Of a stretch of DNA of 64,000 bases, positions 348 to 57,816 are shown in pieces. Numbering within the stretch: position 1 is the stretch's first letter; every line of letters starts with the position of its first letter. The notes beneath the pieces are model-generated. The model worked only from the letters and a program-made list of their open reading frames with translations. It did no database searches and was not told where the DNA came from. The translations under genes and the position numbers were made by a program. This DNA comes from Desulforamulus hydrothermalis Lam5 = DSM 18033 (GTDB lineage: Bacteria; Bacillota; Desulfotomaculia; Desulfotomaculales; Desulfotomaculaceae): positions 248,001-312,000 of the forward strand of contig NZ_CAOS01000003.1 in NCBI RefSeq assembly GCF_000315365.1, read 5' to 3'.

Positions 348-637
348 CCAGACTGTAGACAAAGGTTGTGAAACAAAGTGAGGTGGTTTTATGATCCCCT
401 GTCGGCGACTTGTCGAAGCACCGGTAACAGCACTTGATGAGCGAAAGGAGCACTTGGGGTGGCGCCCACAGGACGTGGGCGCCAGCCGAACCGGGCCAGG
501 AGGGCCCGTTTGAGGCGACCCCAAGGGCCACCGGAGCGAATCATAGTGCTGTCGGTGCGTAGACCGGAGCCAAAGGGGATCATAAACCACCGCTAATGTT
601 TGTTGACACTCTGAGTTCGCCGGAAAAACCGGCGAGC
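325..637 (+). repeat. Terminator-embedded structured element, copy 1 (with its flanking hairpins)
   Basis: The core at 349-613 (265 bp) is bounded by imperfect terminal inverted repeats, CAGACTGTAGACAAA on the left and CAGAGTGTCAACAAA (reverse complement of the right end). Inside is a subterminal inverted repeat, about 18 bp, at 382-400 and 574-592, whose right arm reads AGGGGATCATAAACCACC. Several inner hairpins follow, including one built on GGCGCCCAC / GTGGGCGCC. The core is flanked by two copies of the hairpin CGCCGG-AAAAA-CCGGCG at 325-347 and 616-637. Copies 2 and 3 share the core closely but have different flanking hairpins. No credible coding content is seen. I read it as a MITE-like non-autonomous element. 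Confidence 0.85.
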
Positions 638-17978: not shown

Positions 17979-18281
17979 GAGCCGGGTTTTCCCGGCTCAA
18001 ACTGTTGACAAAGGTTGTAAAACAAAGTGAGGTGGCTTTATGATCCCCTGTCGGCGACTTGTCGAAGCACCGGCAACAGCACTTGATGAGCGAAAGGAGC
18101 CATTGGGGTGGCGCCCACAGGACGTGGGCGCCAGCCGAACCGGGCCAGGATGGCCCGTTTGAGGCGACCCCAAGGGCGACCGGAGCGAATCATAGTGCTG
18201 TCGGTGCGTAGACCGGAGCCAAAGGGGATCATAAACCACCAATAGTGTTTGTCTACACGCTGAGCCGGGTTGTCCCGGCTC
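17979..18281 (+). repeat. Terminator-embedded structured element, copy 2 (with its flanking hairpins)
   Basis: The core at 17999-18261 (263 bp) is very similar to copy 1, including the subterminal inverted repeat ending AGGGGATCATAAACCACC and the GGCGCCCAC / GTGGGCGCC hairpin. Ends are AACTGTTGACAAA and, on the other strand, CAGCGTGTAGACAAA. The flanking hairpins at 17979-17998 and 18262-18281 share the stem GAGCCGGG / CCCGGCTC; their loops are TTTT and TTGT. This hairpin is unrelated to that of copy 1. It lies in the 3' region of the ArsB/NhaD-type gene. Confidence 0.85.
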
Positions 18282-48341: not shown

Positions 48342-48633
48342 AGCAGTCCACCCGGACTGCTCAGGCTGTAGACAAAAAAGTCAAGGTGGTTTAATGATCC
48401 CCTGCCGGCGACTTGTCGAAGCACCGGTCACAGCACTTGATGAGCGAAAGGAGCCATTGGGCTGGCGCCCACAGGACGTGGGCGCCAGCCGAACCGGGTC
48501 AGGATGGCCCGTTTGAGGCGACCCCAAGGGCGACTGTAGCGAATCATAGTGCTGTCGGTGCGTAGACCGGAGCTAAAGGGGATCATAAACCACTATTACG
48601 TTTGTCGACACTCTGGCAGTTCCCACGGACTGC
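48342..48633 (+). repeat. Terminator-embedded structured element, copy 3 (with its flanking hairpins)
   Basis: The core at about 48362-48615 (254 bp) is similar to copies 1 and 2 but is the most diverged (for example GTTTAATGATCCCC in the left subterminal arm). Ends are CAGGCTGTAGACAAA and, on the other strand, CAGAGTGTCGACAAA. The flanking hairpins at 48342-48361 and 48616-48633 share arms GCAGT(C)C / GGACTGC and differ only in loop and one bulge. It lies between the hydrogenase operon and the convergent YkgJ-type gene. Confidence 0.85.
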
Positions 48634-51952: not shown

Positions 51953-52014
51953 CTATGACTGGTATGTCATAGCCAGACTGTAGACAAAGGAAAGTCAAGG
52001 TGGTTTAATGATCC
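51953..52014 (+). repeat. Terminator-embedded structured element, copy 4 (left-end remnant)
   Basis: A hairpin with arms CTATGAC / GTCATAG (51953-51972) is followed by CCAGACTGTAGACAAAGG and then GTCAAGGTGGTTTAATGATC, as in copy 3. The similarity stops at 52014; the right half and second hairpin are absent. On the minus strand the hairpin is followed by TCTTTTT and so forms the terminator of the membrane protein gene at 52047. Confidence 0.75.
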
Positions 52015-57719: not shown

Positions 57720-57816
57720 AGGGACAGGAAAACCTGTCCCTAGAGTGTCGCCAAACATTATCGGTGGTTTATGATCCCCTTTGTCTACAGTCTGAGGGAC
57801 AGGAAAACCTGTCCCT
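57720..57816 (-). repeat. Terminator-embedded structured element, copy 5 (53-bp deletion derivative)
   Basis: Two identical 22-nt hairpins (arms AGGGACAGG / CCTGTCCCT) at 57720-57741 and 57795-57816 enclose 53 bp holding both element ends and the right subterminal arm (on the minus strand GGGGATCATAAACCACC). On the minus strand the sequence passes from CTGTAGACAAAGG straight into GGATCATAAACC, so the core between two CAAAGG repeats is missing. The right hairpin overlaps the stop codon of the globin sensor gene by one base. Confidence 0.8.

Follow-up and report, generated by a model that had tools for sequence, protein, structure and literature searches.

A TwoAYGGAY RNA as the probable cargo of an IS1182-type MITE inserted at terminator-like hairpins in Desulforamulus hydrothermalis

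The window analyzed here is a stretch of 64,000 nucleotides from Desulforamulus hydrothermalis Lam5 (= DSM 18033; contig NZ_CAOS01000003.1, forward-strand positions 248,001 to 312,000), and close to its left end lies a 265-bp repeat on the plus strand (positions 349-613). The repeat begins with the terminal inverted repeat CAGACTGTAGACAAA (349-363), an end of the type also found on an IS1182-family element, and closes with its counterpart, CAGAGTGTCAACAAA on the minus strand (599-613). Immediately outside these ends the same hairpin occurs twice, at 324-350, where its last bases overlap the element end, and at 614-640. Its interior (374-600) had been judged, in an earlier sequence-only reading, to look more like a conserved structured RNA than like a gene. 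According to the fold and its covariation, this interior has an outer stem, P1 (5′ arm 382-399, 3′ arm 575-591), and includes two hairpins with GGA in their loops, GGCGCCCAC-AGGAC-GTGGGCGCC at 461-483 and CGGGCC-AGGAG-GGCCCG at 492-508. Promoter-like sequences, matching the consensus only weakly, point inwards from both ends (366-395 and 579-606), and their -10 element (TATGAT) falls inside the outer stem arm.

As had been noticed from the sequence, the window holds three full copies. Copy 2 (17998-18262, plus strand) is bracketed by hairpins at 17979-17998 and 18262-18281, the latter followed by a T run, and copy 3 (48362-48615, plus strand) by hairpins at 48343-48360 and 48616-48633. Two reduced forms are also present: a 54-bp deletion derivative on the minus strand (57741-57794), which retains both ends and one P1 arm without the RNA core and lies between duplicated hairpins at 57720-57741 and 57795-57816, and a truncated left element end behind a hairpin (51974-52014, plus strand).

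What is the RNA? The core of copy 1 (411-565, plus strand) matches the covariance model of TwoAYGGAY RNA (RF01731) with 58.5 bits against a cut-off of 43, the model being covered from 1 to 168, that is, over its full length, at the gathering score. The cores of copy 2 (18060-18214, 58.1 bits) and copy 3 (48414-48568, 50.3 bits) also exceed the cut-off, on the same strand, and the 2.69-Mb genome holds 55 such places, these three included. It is thus almost certain that the repeat core is TwoAYGGAY RNA. Two hairpins of the AYGGAY type, by which the family is recognized, are found here; the loops in this genome read A-GGAC and A-GGAG/T, without the Y position, and full AYGGAY loops occur in many relatives. 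TwoAYGGAY appeared in 2010 as a table entry with Clostridiales among its hosts (Weinberg et al., 2010, PMC2864571). As far as the accessible part of that report describes it, the present RNA resembles it in having two GGA hairpin loops within a nested stem, and differs in riding a mobile element and in adding a covarying outer stem beyond the Rfam model. A literature search, including one with MITE and mobile-element terms, retrieved neither a vehicle nor a tested function for TwoAYGGAY.

The predicted structure is unusually stable. The minimum-energy fold of 382-594 reaches -128.7 kcal/mol (z = -10.7), a value equaled by none of 200 shuffled sequences, and it contains all the helices proposed from the sequence: the outer arms, the stem made of CACCG/CGGTG and CAGCAC/GTGCTG, and the two hairpins. 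The GTA/GCA/GTC difference between the window copies proved to be a true variable internal loop at element positions 77-78, position 78 being the most variable site of the core. Compensatory changes, for which the three window copies had been searched in vain, came to light once relatives were included. In an alignment of 33 diverse sequences (the window and 32 relatives), RNAalifold finds 22 pairs, 20 of which show changes on both sides; of the 717 cells in the covariation count 93.4% are paired, and 214 are changed on both sides, as against 55.3 ± 6.2 in 500 shuffles and 26-51 in slid controls. P1, which the Rfam model does not include, varies in sequence among most lineages and nevertheless keeps its pairing: cognate arms pair at -40.7 kcal/mol and swapped arms at -17.4, and the cognate arm is the best partner in 34 of 43 genomes, with 1-10 foreign arms equal or better in the other nine. 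G-U pairs outnumber A-C by 17 to 4, and the plus strand folds better than the opposite strand in 42 of 43 genomes, which points to RNA. Taken together, the covariation, the pairing of P1, the G-U excess and the strand preference argue that the fold has been selected as RNA, on the plus strand. The structured-RNA reading is therefore borne out and can be given a name, with strong covariation among relatives, although it was incomplete: the RNA belongs to an IS1182-type MITE that has its own ends and choice of target and, in a congener, an autonomous partner.

Evidence for this vehicle comes from the flanks of the genomic copies. Inverted ends of the CAGACTGTAGACAAA type stand at both sides of 53 of the 55 copies, and outside these ends 50 of the 53 carry a direct repeat, scored as such when it exceeded the 99th percentile obtained with swapped flanks. 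The repeated stretch is 16-31 nt long (median 22 nt across the 53 copies) and is usually a hairpin: 45 of 50 repeats of at least 12 nt fold at -4 kcal/mol or better, compared with 30% of shuffles. A T-rich stretch follows on the right in 35 of the 53 copies and an A-rich stretch precedes on the left in 30. The natural reading of the duplicated hairpins, judged from these sequence features, is that they would be intrinsic terminators.

A search for an autonomous partner, in which 12 genomes were scanned for the end motif, led to pairs of ends 1.6 kb apart in a congener (G008) and in a further genome (G001). The congener has five complete elements of 1,607 bp with the same type of ends as the MITE, and in all five a hairpin stands on both sides, as two copies of one hairpin in each case; G001 has two further elements of this type, both cut by contig ends. 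Their transposase belongs to the IS1182 family (NF033551; E = 1e-136 and 1e-133 for the two proteins tested). No match to RF01731 was found inside these element loci. Shared ends and targets make it very probable that each copy described here is a non-autonomous IS1182-type MITE of about 265 bp with TwoAYGGAY as its cargo. In the 16-contig draft assembly of D. hydrothermalis itself, a search for a transposase with matching ends gave none, and the best transposase relatives in this genome have 25% and 21% identity and different ends; mobility here is thus historical or unproven. Two genes of this genome that resemble IS1182 (L057 and L058) were rejected as partners because their ends differ. 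An IS30-type partner was likewise rejected, the HTH_38 search having led to genes that we take to be IS21-like and that lack these ends. Places where the end motif occurs without a full element turned out, when the regions were read, to be only mini-elements, truncations and unrelated genes.

The IS30-type element IS1630 of Mycoplasma fermentans reportedly duplicates inverted repeats upon insertion, although its transposase is of another family and no IS30-type match with these ends was found in the present genome. Another parallel is the IS1182 family, including IS1272, to which the congener's transposase belongs: in the available portion of the description of IS1272 (PMC5678879), inverted ends and palindromic targets are features common to both systems. 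IS1272 is described there as replacing a stem-loop without duplicating it, whereas the present element has its hairpin duplicated, is non-autonomous and carries an RNA; the model given in the same source includes a branch in which an entire stem-loop is duplicated.

Several other loci were noted along the way. Three MITEs in G001 (L128, L129, L130) have the same IS1182-type ends around unrelated interiors, without TwoAYGGAY. Copies at four loci in G007 (L066 and L178-L180) have similar ends flanked by two different hairpins rather than by one duplicated hairpin. What appears to be the same terminator is occupied in G001 (L064) by a full element and in D. hydrothermalis (L094, C13:63900-64400) by a core-less element of 57 bp in the opposite orientation. 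A group II intron domain match (L118, 30-202) adjoins one of the congener's IS1182-family elements, and L058, on contig C6 of the D. hydrothermalis genome, is an insertion sequence with its transposase inside a long CRISPR array with the repeat GTTTCAATTCCTTATAGGTAGGCTAATAAC.

How far has this RNA spread, and on what? TwoAYGGAY is present in 18 of 60 relatives and in 51 of 398 genomes of a phylum sample, where copy numbers are lower bounds because six candidates were scored per genome. IS1182-type ends flank 14 of 114 loci on both sides, in 9 of 45 other genomes, and none in two controls; the RNA is thus also found without such ends, which occur in only those 9 of 45. The twice-repeated hairpin recurs in G090, G304, G016, G167 and G001 and at one copy in G309 (L216). 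Three copies in two other genomes (L061, L065 and L079; G038 and G046) are enclosed instead by the inverted repeat ACTCAACTTTCGCAC...GTGCGAAAGTTGAGT, which differs from these ends and suggests that the RNA also rides a second small mobile element of an unrelated kind. In some other lineages homology stops shortly beyond the outer stem. A search for the element on plasmids or phages gave no match.

The position of the copies relative to genes was then informative about the type label of the RNA in Rfam, which is that of a cis-regulatory element. Of 53 copies, 50 could be scored (three were undetermined): both flanking genes are sense to the RNA in 14 and antisense in 16, 18 lie between convergent genes and only two between divergent ones. 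Copy 1 has both neighbors on the minus strand, and copies 2 and 3 lie between convergent genes. The proposal that every copy would be transcribed within a neighboring 3′ untranslated region finds no support as a general rule, since in 16 of the 50, copy 1 among them, both neighbors run opposite to the RNA. Divergent pairs are avoided, as expected for targeting of terminators, and no strand preference is seen. Among the 50 scorable copies there is no constant position or strand relative to a gene of the kind that a cis-regulatory element would have.

If the copies have been scattered by transposition, what keeps them alike? A BLAST search over 852 kb finds 58 places, of which 26 are full, 18 are truncated and 14 lack the core. 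The 55 full copies differ from their consensus by 0.033 in the core, 0.028 in the arms and 0.094 in the ends, whereas 32 truncated or core-less copies differ by 0.122 in the core and 0.105 in the ends; this contrast is a hint only, because coverage of the core decides which copies count as full, and the two sets are thus partly chosen by core similarity. Variants shared by at least two copies are scarcer at paired sites (0.13 per site, compared with 0.32 at unpaired ones, p = 0.013; 0.18 against 0.375, p = 0.036, in the BLAST-defined set). Changes private to a single copy are equally common at paired (0.41 per site) and unpaired sites (0.38 per site), and among them G-U over A-C stands at 20 to 11 (p = 0.15, not significant). 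Variation peaks at single sites in mid-core (positions 54, 78 and 186), with no smooth gradient. No variation is seen in the GGA loops of the 55 copies found by the covariance model, a set selected by a model that rewards GGA; in the 26 copies defined by BLAST the variation of these loops (11 of 153 cells) resembles that of other unpaired sites, and loop invariance within the genome was dropped as a proof of selection.

These patterns fit a picture in which the source elements are constrained while individual copies drift. Maintenance of the core by gene conversion instead of selection seems a tentative alternative: dispersed repeats do convert, and ends lying beside unique DNA would convert less, which matches the low divergence of core and arms. 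It does not predict shared variants at unpaired sites or single mid-core hot spots without a gradient, and it leaves the covariation between genomes unexplained, although gene conversion may contribute to the similarity of the copies. A little less probable, and on balance unlikely, is a host regulatory RNA, acting in cis or in trans and kept by selection at many loci, for which the transposon ends would be only a means of spreading. The lower divergence of core and arms and the avoidance of paired sites by shared variants would favor it; the even distribution of private changes, their G-U count, the lack of strand preference relative to genes and the partial choice of the compared sets by core similarity speak against it. 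Least probable by far is a purely selfish DNA repeat whose inverted repeats act as DNA, in a cruciform or in transposition, with the RNA fold as a by-product, for although insertion at hairpins and the 14 core-less and 18 truncated places, where the core was dispensable for the flanking structure, would suit it, a DNA palindrome predicts symmetry between strands rather than the plus-strand and G-U biases found, and the covariation also includes copies that lack these ends.

For the function of the RNA, binding of CsrA has been proposed from motif matches, at least in the accessible text of that study (PMC4333381). The loop letters CA, GGA and G belong to the small number of columns that reach at least 90% conservation in the 33 diverse sequences, and the hairpin stems around them change freely between relatives; GGA apical loops are present, with the exceptions of G007, G024 and G051, in each of which a GGA has been lost. 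D. hydrothermalis has one CsrA (PF02599, E = 1e-23). In the phylum sample 49 of 51 genomes with TwoAYGGAY have CsrA, compared with 236 of 347 others (p = 4e-6); among genomes at least 90% complete the numbers are 44 of 45 and 222 of 311, respectively. The corresponding figures among relatives are 17 of 18 with the RNA and 21 of 42 without it. Under permutation within families the association becomes weak: the 17 of 18 compare with an expectation of 15.4 (p = 0.11), and, once incomplete genomes are removed, 16 of 16 compare with 14.05 (p = 0.04). CsrA-sequestering RNAs of the CsrB/RsmZ type have many hairpins. They likewise present GGA in hairpin loops, whereas the present RNA, a candidate CsrA binder, has two sites on one long rod and is multicopy and mobile. 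CsrA binding is plausible and the likeliest function of TwoAYGGAY, and the chance that the RNA is in fact a CsrA ligand seems about even.

The reading that we prefer, an IS1182-type MITE with TwoAYGGAY as cargo, predicted titration of CsrA and drift after insertion, has as a whole a probability of roughly 0.8. An outline is as follows. An IS1182-family transposase would have moved the MITE in trans and has probably since been lost here. The MITE and the IS1182-family elements, as seen in their sequences, both insert at hairpins that resemble terminators and duplicate the hairpin. Once transcribed, the RNA would present two CA-GGA-G loops to a CsrA dimer and, by binding it, titrate CsrA. After insertion individual copies would drift, constraint acting mainly on the source elements.

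Placing TwoAYGGAY on IS1182-type MITEs explains both its copy number and its location at terminators, and gives reason to doubt its cis-regulatory label. It also lets the CsrA idea be put as a direct, testable question, namely whether a decoy for a global regulator is carried by a mobile element. It is conceivable, if speculative, that TwoAYGGAY is a selfish CsrA decoy, the same RNA traveling on several unrelated small mobile elements across Clostridia, so that the copy number of a transposon would set the host's global post-transcriptional regulator. In D. hydrothermalis such a decoy would amount to 55 matches with about two GGA loops each.
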